The position numbers and the translations under genes were made by a program. Positions 7,121 to 45,062 of a stretch of DNA of 64,000 nucleotides are shown here, piece by piece; position 1 is the stretch's first letter, and each line of letters starts with the position of its first letter. The notes under the pieces are model-generated. The model ran no database searches. It was not told the DNA's origin and saw only the letters and a program-made list of their open reading frames with translations. The stretch lies in assembly GCA_025361565.1 (NCBI GenBank), contig JANYKN010000089.1:62001-126000 (forward strand), in the 5' to 3' direction. This stretch comes from Bacteroidota bacterium (lineage in GTDB: Bacteria; Bacteroidota; Bacteroidia; Bacteroidales; NBLH01).

Positions 7121-8356
7121 ATGCTAAAAAAAACATACAATTTGTACAAAAATTCCTTTTCGGGTTTCTCCCGCGAAGTTTGGATGCTCACTTTAGTGAC
7201 TTTTATCAATAGGGCGGGTACAATGGTAGTTCCTTTTTTGTCGCTTTACCTTACCAATCATCTAAAACTTAGCTTAGGACAAGTAGGGTGGATTATGAGC
7301 TGTTTTGGCTTGGGCTCTTTTGCGGGCTCATGGTTTGGTGGGAAATTGACCGATAAATTTGGCTTCTATAAAGTGATGTTTGTGAGCCAGCTTAGCACTG
7401 GTTTTCTTTTAATAGCACTACAATTTATCAATTCATTTTGGGGATTTGCAGCTGCTATATTTTGCACTATGTTTGTTGCTGATGCTTTTCGTCCTGCTAT
7501 TTTTGTTGCGCTTAAAGCTTATAGCAGACCCCAAAATCAAACAAGATCGATTAGTTTGATAAGAATGGCTATTAATTTGGGATTTGCTTTTGGACCATTT
7601 TTAGGTGGGTTGATCATTGCCTTGGTATCGTATAGTGGATTGTTTTGGGTGGATGGGCTTACCTGCATTTTGGCAATTGTTATTTTCAGGTTTGTTTTAA
7701 AAGAAAAGAAAGTAGATAAAAAAGTCAAAGATGCCAATAGGTTATCTGCAAACAATACCAGATCAGCTTTTAAGGATAAACCTTATCTGATTTTTTTGGG
7801 AATCAGTTTTCTGATGGCCTTTACTTTTTTTCAATTATTTTCTACAATCCCTTTGTTCGACAAAGAAGTACATCATTTAAACGAAGTTTCTATTGGTTTG
7901 TTGATGTCGATTAACGGAGCTTTAATTTTTATGGTAGAAATGCCAATCATCCATTTTCTCGAAAAAAAAGGATTCAACCAAGTAAAACTTATTATATTGA
8001 GCTTATTGCTCATTGGCACCAGTTTCTTTATTTTTAATATCACCAGTTGGTCCGGCATATTGGTAATCAGTATGGTAATAATTACCATTGCCGAAATGTT
8101 TGGCTTTCCTTTTTCAAATGTGTTTGCATTGAACAGGGCACCCGAAGGCAGGGAAGGGCAATACATGTCGCTTTATACCATGTCATTTGCATCTGCAATG
8201 GTTTTTAGTTCAAAAATTGGAATGGAAGTGGTTGCAGCTTATGGATTTTCTGCCAACTGGATTTTAATGGGTGGCCTTGATTTGTTTGCCGTGCTTTTTG
8301 GTGTTTATTTGATTAGGGTTTTGAGGAAGGAGGCTGGCATTCATGTAGGTGGATGA
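7121..8356 (+). CDS. MFS efflux transporter (DHA1-like)
   Basis: This is an inner-membrane secondary transporter of 411 aa with about twelve hydrophobic helices. The loop after helix 2 reads G-S-W-F-G-G-K-L-T-D-K-F-G-F, which is MFS motif A (G-x-L-a-D-r-x-G). The N-terminal half includes R-A-G-T-M-V-V-P-F-L in helix 1, similar to MdtH/YceL-like drug exporters. The central loop around residues 193-220 is basic and Asn-rich, as in other MFS proteins. Substrate cannot be predicted. It stands alone and is followed directly by a strong palindrome at 8369-8407. Confidence 0.85.
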   Translation: MLKKTYNLYKNSFSGFSREVWMLTLVTFINRAGTMVVPFLSLYLTNHLKLSLGQVGWIMSCFGLGSFAGSWFGGKLTDKFGFYKVMFVSQLSTGFLLIALQFINSFWGFAAAIFCTMFVADAFRPAIFVALKAYSRPQNQTRSISLIRMAINLGFAFGPFLGGLIIALVSYSGLFWVDGLTCILAIVIFRFVLKEKKVDKKVKDANRLSANNTRSAFKDKPYLIFLGISFLMAFTFFQLFSTIPLFDKEVHHLNEVSIGLLMSINGALIFMVEMPIIHFLEKKGFNQVKLIILSLLLIGTSFFIFNITSWSGILVISMVIITIAEMFGFPFSNVFALNRAPEGREGQYMSLYTMSFASAMVFSSKIGMEVVAAYGFSANWILMGGLDLFAVLFGVYLIRVLRKEAGIHVGG

Positions 8357-8368
8357 ATAGGAGTTCAT

Positions 8369-8407
8369 ACTAAAGGTGAAACCTTTTTTAAAGGTTTCAC
8401 CTTTAGT
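8369..8407. terminator. Long perfect hairpin after MFS gene
   Basis: Perfect 18-bp arms (ACTAAAGGTGAAACCTTT and AAAGGTTTCACCTTTAGT) with a three-base TTT centre. It starts 13 bases after the MFS stop and would fold into a very stable hairpin. The T-run is inside the loop and not after the stem, so it may be a REP-like element that also stops transcription. Confidence 0.65.
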
Positions 8408-8409
8408 AT

Positions 8410-8753
8410 TAGCCCCAACCAATGCTCCAATATCTCAAAGGTCAAATATTCTCCCATGCCCTAATAATTCATTCCCCATTGATAAGAATCGATTTCCATC
8501 TCATTCAGATTAATACCCATCTATGTTTAACTGCTGTCTTTCTTCCTGAATTTAGTTCCATCTAGTTCAAATTCATGTCTATCTGTGACGATTTCATTTC
8601 CACCTCATTCTAATTAATTTCCCACTTGCTGAATTGTTATCTATGTAGTTAGAACGGATACCCTTTTGTTTCGATTCAGTTTCCATGTAATTTGAACGAT
8701 GATCCTTTTAACTCAAATGAATTATCTTATGTTTTGGATAGATGGGGATATCA
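8410..8753. repeat. Degenerate short repeats in intergenic space
   Basis: This gene-free stretch contains five related units beginning near 8494, 8556, 8598, 8637 and 8681. Each is roughly TTCCATCTxxTTCxAATTxAT followed by a CCCATCT- or CCTTTT-like end, spaced 39 to 62 bases apart. The similarity is loose and judged by eye. I see no coding potential and no strand-specific signal. Confidence 0.4.
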
Positions 8754-8792
8754 CAAAAAAAATTCCCTCTTCGTTGATGAAGCGGGAATTTT
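8754..8792 (-). terminator. Rho-independent terminator
   Basis: On the minus strand AAAATTCCC-GCTTC pairs with GAAGA-GGGAATTTT and is followed by a run of T. It lies 30 bases beyond the stop of the 244-aa hypothetical gene. Confidence 0.8.
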
Positions 8793-8821
8793 GATTTATT
8801 TATAAGGCAAAGTGTCCTGAT

Positions 8822-9556
8822 TTATTTTACAAGCTCCACAACTGGCTTTTCTTCCGGCTTACGCGATTTTCCAATATTACCGATAATTTTACTAAAATTG
8901 AACTGTTCTTTTTTTAAGGGTTCGTTTTTGTAATAGGCGGAAACTTTTTTGCAGATATCAATAATTTCGTCGTAGATGTCATTAAATGAATCGGCCATTT
9001 CTTTGGTAATGCCTTTGGTGGTTTCTTTAAAGTTTTCTTGGGTAATATTGGCAGATTTGAATGAATCGGCATAACTTATTATGGTGGCAATCAAGGAATC
9101 GTTCATGCCTTTTGCCGTAATATCCTTGCGCAAAGTTTCTGTCATATTGGTTTTAAAGGAGTACAGCAATTGCACCATTGCATGGTGTTTGCCAATTTGA
9201 ACTTCTTTGAGGCTTTTTGTAAAACCCAGGGTTTTTAAAATCTCGTCCCTTTTTGCAGGTTCTTTTTTAAAATCACCATCAATCTGGGTTTTAAAAAAAG
9301 CTACATCCCTTTGTGCAGGCAACATAATAGATTCCAATAGGGCAGAGGCTTCTCGCAGGCTTTTTTTAGAATCCACGCCCAATTGGGTATTTAACACATT
9401 GTCAATTTTTGTTTTTAAAGCGGTTGAATAGGTCGATGTCCAATCGGTGCGGACCAAAGAAAGTTCCGGCAACAAGGTATCAAAACTAGTAGCAATGGTT
9501 TGAGCTGTCATTAGCACATCAACATCTTTGAAACTGTATTTTCTACTTTTACCCAT
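8822..9556 (-). CDS. Hypothetical protein, mostly helical, 244 aa
   Basis: I do not recognise this family. The protein is cytosolic by appearance: no signal peptide or membrane segment. It is predicted mostly helical, with a Lys-rich beginning (M-G-K-S-R-K-Y) and a Lys/Pro/Glu-rich tail (residues about 225-244) that looks disordered. There are no cysteine or histidine clusters and no nucleotide-binding motif. The ATG at 9554-9556 is the only reasonable start and a good terminator follows at 8754-8792, so it is a real single-gene transcription unit. Composition is like its neighbours. Confidence 0.7.
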   Translation of the reverse strand: MGKSRKYSFKDVDVLMTAQTIATSFDTLLPELSLVRTDWTSTYSTALKTKIDNVLNTQLGVDSKKSLREASALLESIMLPAQRDVAFFKTQIDGDFKKEPAKRDEILKTLGFTKSLKEVQIGKHHAMVQLLYSFKTNMTETLRKDITAKGMNDSLIATIISYADSFKSANITQENFKETTKGITKEMADSFNDIYDEIIDICKKVSAYYKNEPLKKEQFNFSKIIGNIGKSRKPEEKPVVELVK

Positions 9557-9689
9557 AATAATTTAGAATTAAGTTTAAAAACTATTAGTAAACAATAACT
9601 TATAAACGGCTTTATTTTATTATTATTTAGAAAGCGGTGAAATATATATGTTAAAAAAGTTTAATTTTTTTTGAAGGGTGAGTGTAATG

Positions 9690-9746
9690 TGTCCAGTGGA
9701 GGGGAATTGACCACCTAGGCCTTTGGCCACCCCTCCAAAGGAGGGG
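9690..9746. repeat. GC-rich palindromic element
   Basis: CCCCTCC at 9730-9736 pairs with GGAGGGG at 9740-9746 across AAA, and GGCC-TTT-GGCC (about 9718-9728) makes a second hairpin. The word GGAGGGGAATT occurs twice. It ends two bases from the SDR stop codon and could act as its terminator. G+C is far above the local level, and the pattern resembles intergenic repeats seen in many Bacteroidota. Confidence 0.6.
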
Positions 9747-9748
9747 AA

Positions 9749-10522
9749 TTACAGGGTGGATTTTACATTGCCTCCTTCCACTGCATAAACCTGTCCGGTT
9801 ACAAATTCAGCTAGAGGAGAGAGGAGCCAAGTGGCTAGAGTTCCCAGGTAATCGGGATTTCCCATAAAGCCAGCCGGAATGTTTTTTATCCATGCCTCAT
9901 GCGCCATGTCGTAACTTATTTTTTCCAATTCGCTTTTTTTCTTTATCAACCGCTCAATGGCCGGTGTGGCATGTGAGCCCGGGGCTATGATGTTAAATGT
10001 AATATTTTCGCCACTTACTTCCTGCGATAAAGTTTTTACCATTCCAACAACTGCCAGCCGCAACGAAGTGCTGAGCACCAAATTTTGAATGGGTTGTTTA
10101 ACCGAAGAGCTTTCAATATAAACCAGTCTGCCATAACCTTGAGTTTTGAAAATTGGTAAGAGTTGCTGCGTAATTTCAACCTTCCACCGCAAAAGATTTT
10201 TATAGGCATCATCCCAGTTTTCAAGCTTTGTTTCCTGAAAACTTAAAGCAGGCGGACCTCCAGCATTAATTAGTGCTCCACTTATTTTGTATTTTTTAGC
10301 TAAATCCACTACATTTTCTATTGTTTCTGAAGTTGTTATATCGCCTTGAACGGGTATAAAATGTTTGCCAAAGCGGGCTTCCATGTCGTTAAGTTTGTCT
10401 TCATTACGGGCCACTCCTATAACTGTTGCCCCTTCTTTTATTAAGGCTTCGGCGGTTCCTTTTCCAAAACCACTTGTTGCACCGCAAACCAAAAAGCTTT
10501 GATTCTTTATTTTTATGTCCAT
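9749..10522 (-). CDS. SDR-family oxidoreductase, catalytic Tyr missing
   Basis: Short-chain dehydrogenase/reductase fold of 257 aa. The N-terminal Rossmann motif is G-A-T-S-G-F-G-K-G (T-G-x3-G-x-G type), followed by N-A-G-G-P-P after strand four and I-A-P-G-S-H-A-T-P near residue 190. The serine of the active site is present (E-S-S-S-V-K), but where Y-x-x-x-K should be the sequence is N-L-V-L-S-T-S-L-R-L-A, so both Tyr and Lys are absent. A subgroup of beta-ketoacyl-ACP-reductase-like SDRs shows the same loss. The C-terminal G-Q-V-Y-A-V-E-G-G-N is typical of the fold. It probably binds NAD(P), but whether it catalyses a redox step is open. Confidence 0.8.
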   Translation of the reverse strand: MDIKIKNQSFLVCGATSGFGKGTAEALIKEGATVIGVARNEDKLNDMEARFGKHFIPVQGDITTSETIENVVDLAKKYKISGALINAGGPPALSFQETKLENWDDAYKNLLRWKVEITQQLLPIFKTQGYGRLVYIESSSVKQPIQNLVLSTSLRLAVVGMVKTLSQEVSGENITFNIIAPGSHATPAIERLIKKKSELEKISYDMAHEAWIKNIPAGFMGNPDYLGTLATWLLSPLAEFVTGQVYAVEGGNVKSTL

Positions 10523-38312: not shown

Positions 38313-40469
38313 TCATAAAGTGAAAGGCATTTGCTTTTGCCACATATCAAAATATTTTTCTCTATTTGCATAAAGGTCCTTATGTGTGCCTAACTCAATT
38401 ACTTTGCCTTTTTCCATAACCACAATCGTGTCGGCGTTAAGGACTGTACTTAACCTATGAGCAATCATTATTATTGTTTTTCCTTCAGATTTTAACTTTT
38501 GTACAACAAACATCAATTGTTCTTCAGATTCCGAATCGAGGGCAGAAGTGGCCTCATCAAGAATAACTATTTCAGGTTCTCGATAAAGTACACGTGCAAA
38601 AGCTATTTTTTGGCGCTGACCACCAGATAGGGATGTTCCATTTTCGCCAATGTCTGTAAAAAAGCCTTCTGGCAATTCTTCTATGAATTTGATTAAGCCG
38701 ATTTCCTGACTAATCTTTAGTATTTTATTCATGTCGGGCTCAAATTCACCAATGCCAATATTTTCGGAAATAGATCCTTTAAATAGTTCTACTTTCTGAG
38801 GTATTACACCAACAATCATTCTCAAGCTATGGTTCTCGAACTGGGTAATATCAATATTGTTGATATATATTTTACCAGAAGCAATTGGATAAATATTCTG
38901 CAAAAGGTGGATAAGTGTCGATTTACCGGAACCGCTTTCACCAACAATTGCCGTTATTGCTCCTTTTTTTATTTGTAAGTTAAAATCTTTGAAAACATCA
39001 ATTCGGGAACCATACCTGAAACTCACATTTTGAAAGGAAATATCGCCTAAATGGTCTTTTGATAGTTTGATACAGCTTTGCTTTTCCTGCTCCAAATCCA
39101 TAATTTCAAAAAGCCTGTCAGATGCAATAAAAGCATGTTGTAACGAAATATTGACACCAATAATACTATTCAATGGGCCAGAAAAGTACCCAAGTATTGC
39201 ATAAAAGGATAAGAGTTCACCTACAGTCAAATCATTAGCCATTACAAAGTAGGAGCCTATCCAAAGTACAATAATGGTAAATAATCTTGACATAAACGTT
39301 GTCGAAAATGATGTAAAAACTGTGTTCAACCCGGAAATGTAGCCTGTATTTAGCAATTTTATGAACCTGAATTCCGTTTTTGAATTTGTGTATCCTTCAA
39401 TTCCAAATCGTTTTATGGTGCTGACGGTATTTATTGACTCAACCAATTGGCTTTCGAGGCTGGCAGCATGCTCCATAATTTGTCTTTCTGTTTTTTTATT
39501 TATATGATTGGTGACGAAATATAAAACAATATAAATTGGAATAACAGTCATCACTAACAAGGCCATTTGCCATGAGTAAATGAACATTAGGATAAACGAA
39601 AATGCGACAATTAGAGCATTAACAATCAAGTTTATAAGTGTACTATTGATAAAGTTCCTGATTTTGACCGCATCATTTATCCTAGAAATAATTTCACCTG
39701 TTTGCATAGTATCAAAAAAGCGTTGTGGCAGTTTTAACAGGTGTTTGTAGTAGCCCAGAATTAAACGTGCATCAATGAGTTGGCCTGTTTTAATGGTAAA
39801 TACCGTTTGGTAAATACCCAAAAGTATTTGAACAAATAGCAAAACTAACATGATCAGGCTCATCATGTTGAGCAGGTTTTTATTTCCATTTATAAAAACA
39901 AAATCGGTTAGTTTTTGAATGTAAATGGATGTGGAAAGGCCTATTATTGAGAAGAAAACAGCTCCAACCAATGCTTGGGTCATTACTAATTTGTGTGGTT
40001 TTAAAAGGAAAAACAGCCTTGAAATATTGGAAATTTTTTCATTTCTAATCTCAAAATCATCATTGGGAACAAGTATAACCAGAATTCCAGTCCAAACTGT
40101 TAAAAATTCCTCTTTTTTTCGTTTCTCAAGTTTTCCGGTTGCAGGATCCATTACCAACAGCCCTTTATTGTCAACTTTTATGATGACCACATAGTGCAAC
40201 AGGTTACTTGAGAGTTTAAGGTGTGCAATGGCAGGCTTTGGTATTTTTAATAAGGAATCGTAACTACCCTTAACACCTTTGGCTGTAAAACCTAGTTTTT
40301 CCGCTGCTTCAATAAGACCAAGCACATTCGTTCCCTTTTTATCAGTATTTGCAAATTGGCGAACCCTTGAAACTGGGATATGCAGATTGTAAAAGGCCGA
40401 AACTGAGGACAAACAAGCTGCCCCGCAATCCATGATATCGCGCTGTTTAAATTGTACTTTTCTGTTCAT
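38313..40469 (-). CDS. Peptidase-containing ABC transporter (C39-PCAT) for double-glycine peptides
   Basis: Inner-membrane exporter of 718 aa that cleaves double-glycine leaders and pumps out the mature peptide. The N-terminal C39 peptidase has Q9 (oxyanion hole), catalytic C15 in D-C-G-A-A-C-L, H92 in L-H-Y-V-V-I and D108 in M-D-P-A-T-G. About six membrane helices follow between 160 and 430. The nucleotide-binding domain has Walker A G-E-S-G-S-G-K-S at 510-517, signature L-S-G-G-Q at 614-618, catalytic E639 and the switch H671. All residues needed for function are present. Its start overlaps the HlyD stop by four bases, so the two are translationally coupled. Three double-glycine precursors lie upstream in the same direction. 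Confidence 0.95.
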   Translation of the reverse strand: MNRKVQFKQRDIMDCGAACLSSVSAFYNLHIPVSRVRQFANTDKKGTNVLGLIEAAEKLGFTAKGVKGSYDSLLKIPKPAIAHLKLSSNLLHYVVIIKVDNKGLLVMDPATGKLEKRKKEEFLTVWTGILVILVPNDDFEIRNEKISNISRLFFLLKPHKLVMTQALVGAVFFSIIGLSTSIYIQKLTDFVFINGNKNLLNMMSLIMLVLLFVQILLGIYQTVFTIKTGQLIDARLILGYYKHLLKLPQRFFDTMQTGEIISRINDAVKIRNFINSTLINLIVNALIVAFSFILMFIYSWQMALLVMTVIPIYIVLYFVTNHINKKTERQIMEHAASLESQLVESINTVSTIKRFGIEGYTNSKTEFRFIKLLNTGYISGLNTVFTSFSTTFMSRLFTIIVLWIGSYFVMANDLTVGELLSFYAILGYFSGPLNSIIGVNISLQHAFIASDRLFEIMDLEQEKQSCIKLSKDHLGDISFQNVSFRYGSRIDVFKDFNLQIKKGAITAIVGESGSGKSTLIHLLQNIYPIASGKIYINNIDITQFENHSLRMIVGVIPQKVELFKGSISENIGIGEFEPDMNKILKISQEIGLIKFIEELPEGFFTDIGENGTSLSGGQRQKIAFARVLYREPEIVILDEATSALDSESEEQLMFVVQKLKSEGKTIIMIAHRLSTVLNADTIVVMEKGKVIELGTHKDLYANREKYFDMWQKQMPFTL

Positions 40470-41644
40470 TTTTTGGATGAGCCTGAATTGGTAATATTAG
40501 GGTTGAGCCATTGCGATGATTCATCGAACAGCAATTCTGCAAGTGTTCTTTGCATAAGGAAAAGGTTTGCCGTTAGGGTCATACCTTTTTTTAACCGTGC
40601 AGTTTTACCATTATAGCTTAAGCTTTGTTTAGGTAAGCTGCAAACAACTCGGAATCCCTGCAATTGGTTTTGTTCAATAGATATGTCATTTGCAATATCT
40701 ATAACCGATCCTGAAAGCATACCCCAACTATTATAATTGAAAGCATCAATTCGAAATTTTGACTTTTGAGATAGGTAAACCATTCCAATATCAGAAGGCG
40801 ATAAGTACATTTCAACTACCAATTCAGAATTTGGCGAAAGCTGACAAATATCCTGGTTTGGAAAAAGTAAAGTGCCCACAGTTACCGCAATAAGATTTTG
40901 AACATAACCACTCGAAGATGCTATAATAAAACATTTTGATCGTTCTTTTTCTAAATTGACGAGGGATTCCTTTAGAGTAAGGAGTTGATTTAATAGATTT
41001 TGATTTTCATTTTGCCAAATGGAAATTTGGTTTTTGAATAATTTGGTGTATTTAAGTTGTTCATTTTCGAACCGATAGCTTATCTGATCATATTCTGATT
41101 GAGGAATTACTTTGTTTTGGTAAAGTTGTTTTTGTCGATCAAATTCTTTGCTGATAATGGCTATTTCAGATTTTTGGTAACGCAAATCGGAAATAAACCT
41201 TTGAAAATCCTGTTGGTATTTTAAGGTATGGATAGCCAAGCTCACAAATACAATTGTATTTGTGAGCTTGGTAAGGGTTTCAAGATCGCTTCCTTCTTGT
41301 AGGGCAATGTTTATTTTACTTTTTAATAACAGAAGGCTTTGACAAATTTCGGAAGTATCAACTTCTATCAAAGTATCGCCTTTATTTACCTTGGCGTTTT
41401 CGCTTATTTTTATGGACAGTATTTTTCCGTAAACTGAATTTTTTATCACACCTTGTTTCTCCATAGTGGTTATTATACCCCTACACTGCACGTTCACATC
41501 TACCGATATAAAAAACAGTGATATGGCAAACACGCAAAAAGTAACAAGTAAAATTAAATAAATGATTTTGCTTTTGTTACTGTGTTTTTTTATTAACGTT
41601 TCGGTTGAAAAGTTTATAATTTCGGAAGGGAATATGGGAACCAT
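40466..41644 (-). CDS. HlyD-family periplasmic adaptor
   Basis: Membrane-fusion protein linking the PCAT exporter to an outer-membrane channel. From the ATG at 41642-41644 it has 392 aa; the frame runs upstream to 41680, but that would overlap the CPBP gene, and this start lies four bases behind that gene's stop. One membrane helix is at about 26-47. The lipoyl half-motif V-Y-G-K-I-L-S-I-K-I-S-E-N-A-K-V-N-K-G-D-T-L-I-E-V-D follows, then a long coiled-coil hairpin (about 110-230) and the returning lipoyl half. No TolC-like gene is in the window, so the outer-membrane channel must be encoded elsewhere. Confidence 0.9.
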   Translation of the reverse strand: MVPIFPSEIINFSTETLIKKHSNKSKIIYLILLVTFCVFAISLFFISVDVNVQCRGIITTMEKQGVIKNSVYGKILSIKISENAKVNKGDTLIEVDTSEICQSLLLLKSKINIALQEGSDLETLTKLTNTIVFVSLAIHTLKYQQDFQRFISDLRYQKSEIAIISKEFDRQKQLYQNKVIPQSEYDQISYRFENEQLKYTKLFKNQISIWQNENQNLLNQLLTLKESLVNLEKERSKCFIIASSSGYVQNLIAVTVGTLLFPNQDICQLSPNSELVVEMYLSPSDIGMVYLSQKSKFRIDAFNYNSWGMLSGSVIDIANDISIEQNQLQGFRVVCSLPKQSLSYNGKTARLKKGMTLTANLFLMQRTLAELLFDESSQWLNPNITNSGSSKK

Positions 41645-41648
41645 TAAA

Positions 41649-42131
41649 TTATAAGATAATGTCTTGACAAAAAGGAACAAGATTGATCATGGCATGTATC
41701 GCAAAAACTAAAATTATTGCATTCTCACGTCTTTTCAATGAAATAACAAATGCTGATGCAAAAATTAATCCTATGAAAAATGCTAAAATCATGTAATTCA
41801 GGTTGTAGCAATGTGATAACCCAAAGAAGATTGCCGATAAAAATATTGGAATTACCATAGAATTAGCTTTTAATTTAACTAAGAGTTTATGAGATATTTT
41901 GATAATTAGAAATTGGAAAATAGTTGTTTCAAATAGCGGTCCCACAATTATTACTAGAATAAAGAAGGAAATTTTTTCGTTTTGTAAGTTCTTTATTTCA
42001 TCAGGTAAAGCTAAGTTTACGGAAAATGGCATTAAAACGATTAATTTTTGAATTATTAATATTGCGAGAACATACAATGCAATAAATATAAAAACGTTGA
42101 CCCGGGTTAAAAAAGCGTTTATTCTATCCAT
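41649..42131 (-). CDS. CPBP-like intramembrane protein, degenerate active site
   Basis: 160-aa membrane protein with about five helices. It aligns with the CPBP (Abi/CAAX protease-like) family by G-P-L-F-E-T-T-I-F-Q (normally E-E-x-x-x-R), F-G-L-S-H (motif two histidine) and F-A-I-H-A-M-I-N (motif three H-x-x-x-N). The second Glu is Thr and the Arg is Gln in motif one, so full protease activity is uncertain. Members within bacteriocin loci serve as immunity or maturation proteins, which its place between peptide genes and the exporter suggests here. Stop and start spacing to its neighbours is nine and four bases, so it is in the same operon. Confidence 0.75.
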   Translation of the reverse strand: MDRINAFLTRVNVFIFIALYVLAILIIQKLIVLMPFSVNLALPDEIKNLQNEKISFFILVIIVGPLFETTIFQFLIIKISHKLLVKLKANSMVIPIFLSAIFFGLSHCYNLNYMILAFFIGLIFASAFVISLKRRENAIILVFAIHAMINLVPFCQDIIL

Positions 42132-42140
42132 TTGTCTTTA

Positions 42141-42308
42141 TTAATCAATAAAATTTAAAACGATTGTTGTTGCATACCCAAAAAAGTAACATATATAATA
42201 AAAAGTGTTGTTATAACCTAGTCCAATTAGCACTCTATCAATAATTATTATAAGAAAAAAAATTGTAAGTAAAATATAACCATTGCTTTGATACCTTTTT
42301 GTATTCAT
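42141..42308 (-). CDS. Small membrane protein, 55 aa; candidate immunity protein
   Basis: Reading leftward from ATG at 42306-42308 to TAA at 42141-42143 gives 55 residues: M-N-T-K-R-Y-Q-S-N-G, then a hydrophobic helix (Y-I-L-L-T-I-F-F-L-I-I-I-I), a short D-R-V-L-I-G-L-G turn, and a second aromatic hydrophobic stretch (F-Y-Y-I-C-Y-F-F-G-Y-A-T-T-I-V-L). It has the basic N-terminus and the two-helix layout of many bacteriocin immunity proteins. It ends nine bases before the CPBP ATG, so it belongs to the operon. Homology is not recognised; the role is inferred from size, topology and place. Confidence 0.65.
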   Translation of the reverse strand: MNTKRYQSNGYILLTIFFLIIIIDRVLIGLGYNNTFYYICYFFGYATTIVLNFID

Positions 42309-42339
42309 TTTTTCGTTAATTTATTAATTCAAAATTGAT

Positions 42340-42369
42340 AAGAGTCATCAATTATATTTGATGACTCTT
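42340..42369 (-). terminator. Hairpin separating peptide genes from export genes
   Basis: AAGAGTCATCAA (42340-42351) and TTGATGACTCTT (42358-42369) pair perfectly over six bases, ten bases after the stop of the 69-aa precursor. On the minus strand only a weak T-rich tail follows, so partial read-through is expected: many copies of peptide mRNA, fewer of the exporter. Confidence 0.7.
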
Positions 42370-42379
42370 AAGTTCCTTT

Positions 42380-42589
42380 CTAATTCCAAATTCCTACAGG
42401 ATTATTATTACCAGCTTCTACTAGTGTAGCATTTGCATATGTTGCTGCATTGCGACATGTAGATACTATATAACTAAGTCCAAACATAAAATAGTATAAT
42501 GTATCACCAGGTTCTGATACTCCGCCGTTACATATAGAACATTCTGCTTTTGAAAGCTCTATCAAACCAATTTCTTGTAAATTTTTCAT
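42380..42589 (-). CDS. Double-glycine leader peptide precursor C (class II bacteriocin-like)
   Basis: 69-aa precursor from the ATG at 42587-42589; the longer frame to 42646 overlaps the previous gene. The leader M-K-N-L-Q-E-I-G-L-I-E-L-S-K-A-E ends at G22-G23 (C-N-G-G), matching the class IIb (lactobin/cerein-like) leader with hydrophobic positions at -4, -7 and -12 from the cut. The mature peptide would be 46 aa: an acidic/aromatic start (V-S-E-P-G-D), a hydrophobic helix (L-Y-Y-F-M-F-G-L-S-Y-I-V), one Cys and an Ala/Asn-rich tail ending G-I-W-N. Two cysteines in the leader itself (C17, C20) are odd. It lies 28 bases after precursor A and would be cleaved by the PCAT protease. Confidence 0.8.
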   Translation of the reverse strand: MKNLQEIGLIELSKAECSICNGGVSEPGDTLYYFMFGLSYIVSTCRNAATYANATLVEAGNNNPVGIWN

Positions 42590-42617
42590 AGTAAAAGATT
42601 TAATTTTGTATATTAAT

Positions 42618-42809
42618 TTATTTGTTTGCAGCAGCAGCACCATCATTCCAACCTTGAATTCCTTTATCTAGATTGTCAACCACATAAATTGTAAGGCAAA
42701 TTCCACCAATTATTGTTCCAATAATGGTCCACCAACCCCCATCAGTTTTTTTCATCTCAATAGCATCCATTTCCTGAACGCCCATTGCATTTAAATCAAA
42801 GTTTTTCAT
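42618..42809 (-). CDS. Double-glycine leader peptide precursor A
   Basis: 63-aa precursor. Leader M-K-N-F-D-L-N-A-M-G-V-Q-E-M-D-A-I-E-M then a D-G-G cleavage site at residues 23-25. The mature part is 38 aa, begins W-W-T, and carries a helix-packing G-x-x-x-G (G31, G35 in G-T-I-I-G-G), a hydrophobic segment and a polar Ala-rich tail (G-W-N-D-G-A-A-A-A-N-K). This layout is that of class IIb two-peptide bacteriocins. The leader coding sequence and 5' region are identical over 77 bases to precursor B's, though the mature regions are unrelated. No modification enzyme is nearby, so it is probably secreted unmodified. Confidence 0.88.
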   Translation of the reverse strand: MKNFDLNAMGVQEMDAIEMKKTDGGWWTIIGTIIGGICLTIYVVDNLDKGIQGWNDGAAAANK

Positions 42810-42839
42810 GTTTGTAAAAATTTAAAGTTAAAAAATTAT
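42763..42839 (-). repeat. 77-bp exact duplicate, copy A (leader + 5' UTR)
   Basis: Identical base for base to 44514-44590. It covers the 5' untranslated region (about 30 bases), the ATG and codons for about the first 15 residues of the leader. Identity stops inside the leader just before the divergent mature part. Confidence 0.97.
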
Positions 42840-42930
42840 CCAAATAGGTTTAATTTTTTGCAAGTGATTTGTATATGTGGTGTTTAAGCTTATCATAAAG
42901 ATAATGTTAAATAGCTGTTTTCAAAGTGGA

Positions 42931-44064
42931 TTATTCTTTTTCATTGATTTTTAAGTTATTGTTAATAAACTGATCGATATAATTTACATTTCGTGGATCA
43001 GCTTTCGATTCTTTTATTTTTATAACTTTTAAAGGTTCATTAATGACCTTTTCAACATTAAAAGAGATACATCTTAAGTCGATATGATTTATTTTTGGAA
43101 GAAATCGAAGGGTATTATTCGATACATGATTTAAAAAATATTGATTTCCAACTAGTTTGTATGATGTTTCATAGGAAGTTATACTTATTGGAATTGAATT
43201 TATTGTACTAATTGTGAAATGGCCTGTCTTTTCAATTGAATTTGTATTAAGGTTGATTAAAAGATATTTAAATATATTTGAAATATCCTCATTTTCTTTC
43301 GATACATTAATAGTGACTTTAGGATTTTTTCTTTTTTGATCAATCATTGAATAAGTTCGAGAGCTTACTAAAATTAAATAATTCGAACTATCCTTCTTAT
43401 AAGCTTTGAAATATTTAAAATCATCAGGGACATGGAGTTCAGATTTCTCATCACGTTTACTCCAAATTCGTCGATCGACCCCCAATTCTTTAGAATAAGG
43501 ACAATTATACATTCGTAAAAAATCCAAATCAAGAGAATAATAGAGATTGCTATATTCCCCTCCCAAGGATTTAGTCCATGTGTCGTAAACGGTAGGTGAA
43601 ATATTTGGGGATTTATGAACAAAGTCACAATTTTCGGTATGCGTTAGAATAGGTTGATTACTATTAAAACCATGATCATAAACCAATACTTTTGTTTTAA
43701 TTTGTTCAGTTGAAATTGTGTCGTTCCGCATTTCATTTTCACTATAAGATCCAACTAGATTGAAAGCTTGTTTTGAATAATAAATGGATTGTTTTATATT
43801 TAAGACCAGTTTTGCAAGATCATTAGCAGATTTTCCTTGCAATTTTATTATACTATCAATGTCTAATTGAGGATATATACTCCAGTAGAGTGTATCTAAC
43901 TGAACAAATTTAGAATATCTATAAAGTAGATTTATACTTAAGCTATCTATAGGTAAACTGGATACAACATTATTATTTTGAACCTTAATATTAACAATAT
44001 GTTCATTTTGTCCTGTTATAGACAATGCCGATAAATAGATTATTAAAAGAAATATTATCTTCAT
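42931..44064 (-). CDS. Exported protein of unknown function, 377 aa, within peptide locus
   Basis: Not recognised. Residues 1-18 form a signal peptide (M-K-I-I-F-L-L-I-I-Y then L-S-I-T-G-Q), so the mature protein is in the periplasm or outside. The remainder is a soluble, beta-rich, Asn/Ser/Tyr-rich protein with two cysteine pairs too sparse to be diagnostic (near E-N-C-D-F, Y-N-C-P-Y, R-C-I-S). No catalytic motif stands out. It lies between precursor B and precursor A in the same direction, 292 and 122 bases from them. It could be an accessory for export or a carrier, or an immunity factor, but this is inference only. Confidence 0.6.
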   Translation of the reverse strand: MKIIFLLIIYLSALSITGQNEHIVNIKVQNNNVVSSLPIDSLSINLLYRYSKFVQLDTLYWSIYPQLDIDSIIKLQGKSANDLAKLVLNIKQSIYYSKQAFNLVGSYSENEMRNDTISTEQIKTKVLVYDHGFNSNQPILTHTENCDFVHKSPNISPTVYDTWTKSLGGEYSNLYYSLDLDFLRMYNCPYSKELGVDRRIWSKRDEKSELHVPDDFKYFKAYKKDSSNYLILVSSRTYSMIDQKRKNPKVTINVSKENEDISNIFKYLLINLNTNSIEKTGHFTISTINSIPISITSYETSYKLVGNQYFLNHVSNNTLRFLPKINHIDLRCISFNVEKVINEPLKVIKIKESKADPRNVNYIDQFINNNLKINEKE

Positions 44065-44300
44065 CTTAAAATTTTATAACTAGTATAATTAAAATAGGAA
44101 TTTTCTATTTTCCAAAAATTATATTTGAAAAGTAGCTAAATATATCTTACTGGGTATCTCTTTTACTCATCTAAATAAATGAGGAAATATTATGTATTGA
44201 ATCCCACTAAATCAAGATTGATTTAACGAATAATTGTTTTTTAATTATACAATTATTTGCTTAATAGGTTTCATAATTTGTTATGTTTCCTTTAAAATAT

Positions 44301-44322
44301 AAAAAGCTTAGATGAGCTAAGA
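44301..44322 (-). terminator. Weak terminator behind precursor B
   Basis: CTTAG and CTAAG pair around a five-base loop with five T next on the minus strand, 35 bases beyond the precursor B stop. Confidence 0.45.
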
Positions 44323-44356
44323 GGATACCTAGTTTAATCTTTTATTAGTTTAGGTT

Positions 44357-44560
44357 CTAATAACAACCGCCCATCCAACTGCCTGACACATCTTGGAAGT
44401 CTCCTCCAACATTAACGAATGACCAATTACAACAAGACGCAGAAAGACAAACATTAGCCCAATCTAGTACTTCGGCCCAAGTAAGTCCACCATCAACGAT
44501 TTTCACTTCCAATGCATCCATTTCCTGAACGCCCATTGCATTTAAATCAAAGTTTTTCAT
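44357..44560 (-). CDS. Double-glycine leader peptide precursor B (Cys-rich core)
   Basis: 67-aa precursor. Its leader begins with the same M-K-N-F-D-L-N-A-M-G-V-Q-E-M-D-A as precursor A, then L-E-V-K-I-V-D-G-G ending at residue 25. The 42-aa core is entirely different: L-T-W-A-E-V-L-D-W-A-N-V with four cysteines (C38, C43, C44, C66) and a Gly/Ser/Trp-rich C-terminus (V-S-G-S-W-M-G-G-C-Y). Two disulfides are possible, or a modification not encoded nearby. The core has no resemblance to known bacteriocins that I can name. It is upstream of the exported 377-aa gene and downstream of the LytTR gene. Confidence 0.85.
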   Translation of the reverse strand: MKNFDLNAMGVQEMDALEVKIVDGGLTWAEVLDWANVCLSASCCNWSFVNVGGDFQDVSGSWMGGCY

Positions 44561-44590
44561 GTTTGTAAAAATTTAAAGTTAAAAAATTAT
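44514..44590 (-). repeat. 77-bp exact duplicate, copy B (leader + 5' UTR)
   Basis: Exact copy of 42763-42839. Together they show two precursor genes built on one leader/5' UTR cassette with different cores. Confidence 0.97.
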
Positions 44591-44696
44591 TTTACTGTTT
44601 TGAATAATTTGTTCGAACGCTTATTCGCAGATAAAAATAATTTAATATTCTTTTTAATCAAGCTTTGATATTGACTACTTTGTGGCAGACTATGTT

Positions 44697-45062
44697 TCAA
44701 TTTGTGAGAAGTATGGGTTTTGCCTTTGAGCCAAATGCAATTGATTCAATTTCTTTTGCAATTTTCTTATCAGGATATATTATTTCGTTGTTTGCTAATA
44801 ATATTTCTGGTGAATTACCAATTTTTATTTCGATACAATGATGGATATTAATACTTATGCTTCGGTTAACACGGTAAAAAGTCGATTTACAAAGCATTTG
44901 CTCAATTTCTTTTAATGGTTTTGAAATAATGAAGGTTTGGCCATCGGCTAGTTTTAATGTCGTGTACGAATTATCAGCTTTTAAATAAATGATCTGATCT
45001 GTGCAAAACTTTCTTTTCCTATTTCTGGCTATCGTCAATACTATAAATTCATTGGTTTTCAT
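44697..45062 (-). CDS. LytTR-domain DNA-binding regulator
   Basis: Stand-alone LytTR-type transcription factor of 121 aa from the ATG at 45060-45062. The frame continues upstream to a GTG at 45182, but those 40 codons come from the large palindrome and look unrelated. The LytTR domain (residues about 15-112) has Q-I-I-Y-L-K-A-D-N-S-Y-T-T-L-K-L, F-I-I-S-K-P-L-K-E-I-E-Q-M-L and F-Y-R-V-N-R-S-I-S-I-N-I-H-H-C. There is no receiver domain or membrane segment. LytTR regulators often control bacteriocin and quorum operons; it is transcribed toward the peptide genes and is their probable regulator. Confidence 0.88.
   Translation of the reverse strand: MKTNEFIVLTIARNRKRKFCTDQIIYLKADNSYTTLKLADGQTFIISKPLKEIEQMLCKSTFYRVNRSISINIHHCIEIKIGNSPEILLANNEIIYPDKKIAKEIESIAFGSKAKPILLTN

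Follow-up and report, generated by a model that had tools for sequence, protein, structure and literature searches.

Gene content of the locus

The window, i.e. the whole stretch of 64,000 nucleotides from a Bacteroidota genome that was analysed, contains a run of nine reading frames between positions 38313 and 45062. All are on the minus strand and three encode precursors with a double-glycine (G-G) leader, which confirmed the positions and the layout given in an earlier sequence-only reading. The run opens with a LytTR gene. The features are, in the direction of the run:

44697..45062, minus strand: stand-alone LytTR DNA-binding regulator, 121 aa (PF04397, E 1.5e-12)
44487..44611, no strand: repeat copy 2 (125 nt), leader of B and upstream DNA, 84% identity to copy 1
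44357..44560, minus strand: precursor B, 67 aa, 25-aa G-G leader and 42-aa polar core with 4 Cys
42931..44064, minus strand: p377, 377 aa, probably Sec-exported; candidate cognate partner of peptide B
42736..42860, no strand: repeat copy 1 (125 nt), leader of A and upstream DNA, 84% identity to copy 2
42618..42809, minus strand: precursor A, 63 aa, 25-aa leader and 38-aa hydrophobic core (TIGR03949, 22.7 bits)
42380..42589, minus strand: precursor C, 69 aa, 23-aa leader and 46-aa core; adjacent-pair layout as in relatives
42339..42370, no strand: hairpin of 13 pairs, terminator-like on both strands, separating precursor C from the genes downstream
42141..42308, minus strand: 55-aa membrane protein (hydrophobic ORF), possible A/C immunity peptide
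41649..42131, minus strand: CPBP (Rce1-like) membrane protein, possible A/C immunity protein (PF02517)
40466..41647, minus strand: HlyD-type periplasmic adaptor (PF13437 over cut-off; TIGR01843, 1.1e-33)
38313..40469, minus strand: C39 peptidase/ABC exporter, 718 aa (PF03412, PF00664, PF00005; TIGR01193, 6.2e-150)

LytTR was the sole domain found by Pfam in the regulator; a receiver domain was not detected. The 55-aa membrane protein matched no family over cut-off in Pfam or NCBIfam. Profiles of both collections identified no lanthipeptide or radical-SAM RiPP modifying enzyme among the nine genes, which upholds the absence reported earlier, and export of the G-G peptides in unmodified form is a well-supported prediction. 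Six terminator-like sites were found in the region with 3.2 expected, thus the hairpin is weak evidence of termination. Comparison of the flanks with congeners yielded partial, diverged matches only, so that an empty site could not be shown.

The export machinery

The catalytic residues Q9, C15, H92 and D108 of the C39 peptidase are all present in the exporter, as are Walker A (510), LSGGQ (614) and Walker B (636) of the ATPase. This residue check bore out the claim that both active sites are intact. The C39 domain (PF03412, 1.9e-31) and HlyD_3 in the adaptor (PF13437, 4.1e-05) were over the Pfam cut-offs; TIGR01843 (HlyD) and TIGR01193 (bacteriocin ABC transporter) scored strongly, yet below their curated cut-offs. 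With a catalytic C39-ABC fusion and neighbouring G-G precursors the locus is a C39/ABC (PCAT) double-glycine export system.

An outer-membrane channel gene had been reported missing nearby. Indeed, the 31 TolC-type (PF02321) matches of the genome are all on other contigs, none on that of the window. In L022, the locus of the closest transporter relative, the gene order is CPBP-HlyD-C39-TolC with TolC directly downstream. Taken as a whole, the sequence-only reading was partly supported, namely as to unmodified G-G peptide export, and had overlooked this TolC neighbour. HlyD adjoins the transporter or is at most 1.2 kb away in 14 of 16 other genomes with close transporter relatives. Tripartite type I export of microcins is by ABC-HlyD-TolC, e.g. 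of the CvaAB-TolC type. The locus shares C39-ABC plus HlyD with it, and L022 the adjacent TolC as well; it differs in that TolC is outside the locus, and peptides and partners seem unrelated.

The sequence-only reading was to be given up if homologous transporters never sat near G-G precursors. This did not turn out to be so: clear precursors were found near the relatives in 7 of the 16 other genomes, and adjacent precursor pairs in 5 (L048 is a probable sixth). A scan for G-G frames gave 17 matches in 160 kb around 16 transporter relatives, some of which, e.g. in L047, resemble chance. Control loci had three matches in 140 kb, one of them precursor B itself, and the window flanks two in 56 kb. 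Therefore, G-G frames are commoner around transporter relatives than expected by chance. A strict leader pattern occurred solely in the own genome (1 of 395) and carries little information on the spread of such leaders.

Precursors A and C

The earlier statement that the cores match no bacteriocin which can be named was wrong for precursor A. With TIGR03949, the class IIb profile for lactobin A/cerein 7B, it reached 22.7 bits, above the cut-off of 21.5 and in part due to its leader. In L039 both peptides passed this profile as well, in L041 one did. Precursors B and C remained without any match, at E up to 1 for Pfam and up to 10 for NCBIfam.

The start of C is the inner ATG (42589) rather than the beginning of the 88-aa frame, which leaves 28 bases between A and C. 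GTIIG in A and AATYA in C are possible GxxxG-like motifs. The predicted mature masses are about 4061.6 Da for A and about 5005.5 Da for C. All core charges are negative (A -1.2, B -4.3, C -2.3), which is unusual for bacteriocins. The CPBP protein matched PF02517 over the Pfam cut-off (5.7e-09). It retains FGLSH and HAMIN; its first motif is FETTIFQ, the canonical one being EExxxR. A 46% relative is located beside the peptide pair in L039, and in L022 a CPBP fragment precedes HlyD.

The recurrent HlyD and G-G neighbours together with the TIGR03949 match of A argue that a two-peptide-type bacteriocin locus, of a kind seen repeatedly, forms the core of the run. All three precursors had been named before; that A and C resemble the peptide pairs of other loci had escaped notice. 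The G-G leader, the hydrophobic A core, the C39 exporter, the adjacency of A and C and, next to these, the small membrane and CPBP proteins are as in class IIb two-peptide bacteriocins. Differences are the Gram-negative-type HlyD, the three precursors, B plus p377, the acidic cores and the receiver-less LytTR protein.

Precursor B and the exported protein p377

The unusual part of the locus is precursor B with the 377-aa exported protein. Around their start codons A and B are identical over 60 bases, whereas the cores that follow are unrelated; over 125 nt of leader and upstream DNA the identity is 84%. The G-G leaders of both had been noted correctly, their duplication had not. One leader on unrelated cores shows a route by which an exporter can gain new cargo. 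The B frame is intact, its leader keeps G-G, and the mature peptide is predicted at about 4579.1 Da, less 4 for two disulfides. Its core had no detectable relative in Pfam, NCBIfam or by sequence comparison.

p377 begins 292 bases after B. The frame is intact and has a hydrophobic N-terminal stretch (by eye). The exported protein was rightly named earlier; overlooked was its 52% paralogue on contig C110 of this genome (locus L013), directly after another precursor, P2. By gene content L013 is a bacteroidetocin-like locus. The paralogue is the one convincing relative in the genomes searched, which leaves p377 with just two known occurrences. It was absent from 98 relatives and, except for a weak 65-aa match with two stops, from 394 other genomes of the phylum. 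There was no match in plasmids, no Pfam family and no credible NCBIfam family; no solved structure was matched (the lowest E was 0.44), and a single-sequence fold prediction had a mean pLDDT of 31.6. By hhalign, a weak remote link (P 0.0033, with a probability of 9.7%) connects p377 to the part of the partner protein p420 that follows its CarboxypepD_reg domain; none of 150 column shuffles did as well. p420 has matches in 44 of 60 related genomes, many to the CarboxypepD_reg domain alone.

The cores of B and P2 look alike by eye, as do those of C and P2. Homology is not claimed in either case because, with 28 pairs tested, 229 of 2000 shuffles reached the score in the first and 33 of 2000 in the second.

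A proposed mechanism and its alternatives

In our leading explanation, still a tentative one, the locus serves to produce antagonistic peptides and to export them unmodified, in two units, A plus C and, separately, B plus p377. The LytTR protein would probably switch the locus on. A and C would form a two-peptide, class IIb-like unit with presumed antibacterial activity, the 55-aa and CPBP proteins being the likely protection against it at the inner membrane. B, a polar four-cysteine peptide, would be a unit of its own under a copy of the leader of A, possibly gained by recombination; because of this copy the resident transporter should accept it. The C39 domain would cut A, B and C after G-G, the ABC domain would drive export, and HlyD may connect the transporter with a TolC whose gene lies outside the locus. 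The cognate partner of B is probably p377, exported to work outside the inner membrane and most likely protecting the producer. Antagonism and protection are both deduced from gene content and sequence. Points against this explanation are the negative charge of all three cores, the lack of significant similarity between the B and P2 cores, the rarity of p377, the 292 bases between B and p377 and the missing thiol oxidoreductase near B.

It is unlikely, in our estimate, that the peptides are signals of a cell-density system which feed back on the LytTR regulator, with p377 as a periplasmic receptor or binding protein. LytTR domains are a usual feature of peptide-pheromone regulons, and here a LytTR gene leads the run and the cores are acidic. 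Against this, the regulator has only the LytTR domain, no histidine-kinase-like frame was seen by eye among those listed for 34-50 kb, and in the related loci L038-L041 and L044 that place is taken by a different, HTH-like protein (by eye). Moreover, where peptides come in pairs with membrane or ABC partners, they resemble bacteriocins with immunity. We give a similarly small chance to p377 as part of the action of B and not protective, i.e. a carrier secreted together with it, a factor for its maturation or a protein on which it docks at the surface. The remote link to p420 would fit, since the distribution of p420 matches suggests general roles of such proteins outside these loci. However, several non-matching exported families accompany polar peptides, and immunity to different peptides fits this better than one shared maturation step. 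Least probable is that only A and C matter and that B and p377 are neutral leftovers of a leader duplication: the lack of relatives of the B core and the rarity of p377 are compatible with it, but both frames and the G-G of B are intact and the order precursor-then-p377 recurs in L013.

The plain locus would be no surprise because class II-type precursors have already been reported from Bacteroidota at large scale (PMC12648078). In the literature searched, with subscription papers mostly outside its scope, we met no publication that describes exported partners of Bacteroidota G-G peptides.

Relation to bacteroidetocins and partner type

The bacteroidetocin regions (Coyne et al., 2019; PMC6671954) likewise come from Bacteroidota and have a G-G peptide and a C39 exporter. 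As described there, bacteroidetocins A and B have a 42-aa core with 4 Cys, as has precursor B, at least two Cys in the core being characteristic; the leader is 15-16 aa, versus 25 aa in B. This likeness is one of described features and gene content. The window transporter is only 31% identical to that of L013. Searches for relatives of the L013 proteins detected no five-TM protein near the window locus, unlike in bacteroidetocin regions, and the thiol oxidoreductase, part of most such regions according to the same paper, was limited to a 26-aa match about 26 kb from B. L013 has both the TM protein and the thiol oxidoreductase.

Two reports describe the bacteroidetocin A and B regions as lacking an obvious immunity gene and the producers as inhibiting themselves (PMC6671954; PMC8546649); how such producers keep their fitness is raised as an open question in the latter. 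Exported proteins fixed after polar peptides are concrete candidates for the missing self-protection. More speculatively, and with a rather low probability, the polar Cys peptides of Bacteroidota may be two-gene modules with an exported immunity protein (p377, a CarboxypepD_reg-like protein of about 300 aa as in L179 and L185, or a 220-aa protein), the very safeguard that the bacteroidetocin A and B regions, as described, lack. Such a module could move to another exporter by a leader swap alone, as B plus p377 may have done. The three exported families have no mutual match at E 1e-3. The name GLPGLI, considered for the 220-aa partners, found no confirmation in NCBIfam and was dropped.

Partner type goes with core type in bacteroidetocin-like loci: exported proteins come after 8 polar cores, membrane or ABC proteins after 14 hydrophobic ones, and the two groups of cores do not overlap in peak hydropathy. 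Counted per locus this is 3 versus 8 (p 0.012, labels by eye), a rule measured on the data from which it was derived. The regex scan admits leaders of about 14-17 residues only, so short leaders were found partly by construction. HlyD-type loci blur the rule; several polar cores there, including C of the window, have membrane partners. A later test was only partly supportive. Under automatic labels, the prediction, written beforehand, agreed with 7 of 7 multi-membrane cases and with 0 of 1 exported case. After relabelling by eye, which was not blind, it was 9 of 10 and 3 of 4, respectively (Fisher p 0.041). Mutual exclusion of exported partners (3 of 12 loci) and ABC-2 exporters (7 of 12 loci) was considered and discarded; the hypergeometric p of 0.045 depends on soft labels set by eye, and in L040 a p420-like protein occurs together with an ABC-2 exporter.

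The export core of the locus is of a recurrent type

Locus 38313-45062, minus strand, genes in order of transcription
Gene 1: LytTR protein
Gene 2: precursor B
Gene 3: p377, an exported protein of 377 aa
Gene 4: precursor A (NCBIfam class IIb match)
Gene 5: precursor C (starts at 42589)
Gene 6: membrane protein, 55 aa
Gene 7: CPBP protein
Gene 8: HlyD
Gene 9: C39-ABC exporter

The domains and catalytic residues assigned by the sequence-only reading agreed with domain searches and a residue check. Precursor A was placed in class IIb, lactobin A/cerein 7B family (NCBIfam; 22.7 bits, cut-off 21.5). The match spans residues 12-42, thus leader and core both contribute. None of the 31 TolC-type matches in the window's genome was located on the window's contig.

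The transporter was searched in 295 genomes of the order (E 1e-150 or better), which yielded 17 genomes, own included. In 14 of the 16 others HlyD adjoins the transporter or is at most 1.2 kb away (L041; L numbers denote fetched genome regions); L050 and L051 are the two exceptions. Clear G-G precursors were close to the transporter in seven of the 16 (L038, L039, L040, L041, L044, L048, L049). Five of these seven have neighbouring precursor pairs and L048 is a probable sixth; the Mucilaginibacter locus L012 likewise carries a pair. The L043 precursor was doubtful. No acceptable precursor was present in L042, L045 (a short contig), L046, L047 (its single frame looks like chance), L050 and L051, i.e. 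6 of 16, and the contigs of L011 and L022 stop too early for scoring. L022 is the closest relative (77%), with the gene order CPBP fragment, HlyD, C39-ABC, TolC. A scan for G-G frames gave 17 hits in 160 kb around the 16 relatives' transporters. Control loci (140 kb) gave 3, among them precursor B, and 56 kb of flanking sequence in this window gave 2. Ten peptides from relatives were scored against NCBIfam: both L039 peptides and the L041 one passed TIGR03949; one L012 peptide, both L038 peptides and one L049 peptide stayed below cut-off. The export core of the window locus is of a recurrent type. By eye, an HTH-like protein of about 110 aa was seen near precursors or transporter in L038-L041 and L044, at the place of the window's LytTR gene.

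B and p377 are the odd unit of the locus

A and B do not differ in the 20 bases ahead of the start codon or in the 40 that open the gene. The likeness continues to about codon 25 (125-nt repeat, 84%); beyond, they are unrelated. The shared leader copy suggests that B was fitted to this exporter by recombination. Pfam and NCBIfam searches returned no family for p377. In a search of relatives (99 genomes) only its own genome matched; in the phylum, 2 of 395 did, the second by 65 aa with two stops (E 5e-4). A paralogue (52%) follows precursor P2 on contig C110 of the same genome:

L013:1018-16410, contig C110: bacteroidetocin-like locus with repeated membrane-protein, redoxin and exported-partner genes

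L013 has five precursors with similar 15-aa leaders; the cores of P4 and P5 are alike, the others differ. It also encodes a C39-ABC exporter, thioredoxin-like proteins of the AhpC/TSA type and membrane proteins that belong to a single family. Thus, the same partner protein occurs with two exporters and two leader types. Likened by gene content alone, L013 matches the bacteroidetocin regions, which are described as comprising a five-TM protein, a G-G peptide, a thiol oxidoreductase and a C39 exporter (Coyne et al., PMC6671954). B plus p377 is the odd unit of the window locus.

Partner type likely tracks core hydropathy

A profile of the L013 membrane protein matched 13 of 295 genomes of the order, own included. 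Regions from ten of the 12 others were fetched (G003 and G663 were left out) and nine had precursors, L086 none. Eight polar cores (L013, L080, L087) had an exported protein next, directly or past a twin precursor, whereas 14 hydrophobic cores (L081-L085, L087, L088, L089) were followed by multi-membrane or ABC proteins. With partners labelled by eye, peak hydropathy did not overlap (exported at most 1.32, membrane/ABC at least 1.40). L087 holds one polar and one hydrophobic unit. The contrast in the window is alike: membrane proteins accompany the hydrophobic A, and p377 the polar B. The rule is blurred in HlyD-type loci because several polar cores there, window C included, precede membrane proteins.

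The prediction was written down before a phylum search, which gave matches in 28 of 395 genomes (the window's own among them); for each of the 32 matches in other genomes the region was fetched. Precursor frames, 23 in total, were present in 14 of the 32 regions. By automatic labels 7 of 7 frames with a multi-membrane partner were as predicted and 0 of 1 with an exported partner (L154, 1.49); the remaining 15 had no usable label. Labelling faults came to light on reading some loci. ABC ATPases come after the L159 and L161 precursors, and peptides starting KFWG or KFFG in L179 and L185 directly precede exported proteins:

L185:7601-8020 and L179:8749-8931: four-Cys KFWG/KFFG peptides before ~300-aa CarboxypepD_reg-like exported proteins

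The domain is over the Pfam cut-off in L179 and below it in L185. After relabelling, which was not blind and takes in one peptide found only by reading, agreement was 3 of 4 for exported partners and 9 of 10 for membrane/ABC partners (Fisher p 0.041). Partner type likely tracks core hydropathy. Matches with E from 1e-22 to 2e-4 connect the ~300-aa partners of L013, L087, L179 and L185, in part by way of the domain they share; those of L185 and L087 gave no direct match. Compared as profiles (2 versus 15 rows), p377 aligned over residues 67-197 with p420, an exported partner family with a CarboxypepD_reg domain (P 0.0033, hhalign probability 9.7%). The score of 30.2 exceeded all 150 column shuffles (best 25.4), a weak sign that p377 should be grouped with the exported partners.

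Two kinds of peptide may share the exporter

A and C are consistent with a two-peptide bacteriocin against which the producer is protected at the membrane. The features of B suit a polar, disulfide-containing peptide which would work from outside, by analogy to bacteroidetocins, reported to act on BamA (PMC8546649); p377 would be its partner and protect the producer. The bacteroidetocin A and B regions are described as being without an obvious immunity gene, and their producers as self-inhibited (PMC6671954, PMC8546649); this would agree with a view in which the exported partners may be protective. Alternatively, the peptides of the window locus may be signals, a role with which their acidic cores are consistent.

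Other C39 exporters

A second HlyD plus C39-ABC pair of the window's genome is cut by the end of contig C173 (L014:2-2178); its transporter is 60% identical to that of the window. On contig C62, roughly 7 kb separate a C39-ABC gene (L015:518-724 and 8097-10277 for the two genes) from a precursor that has, by eye, a lanthipeptide-like leader and a Cys-rich core. On the 3-kb contig C184 (L016), two genes resembling, by eye, ATP-grasp and SPASM peptide maturases precede a C39-ABC gene truncated at the contig end.
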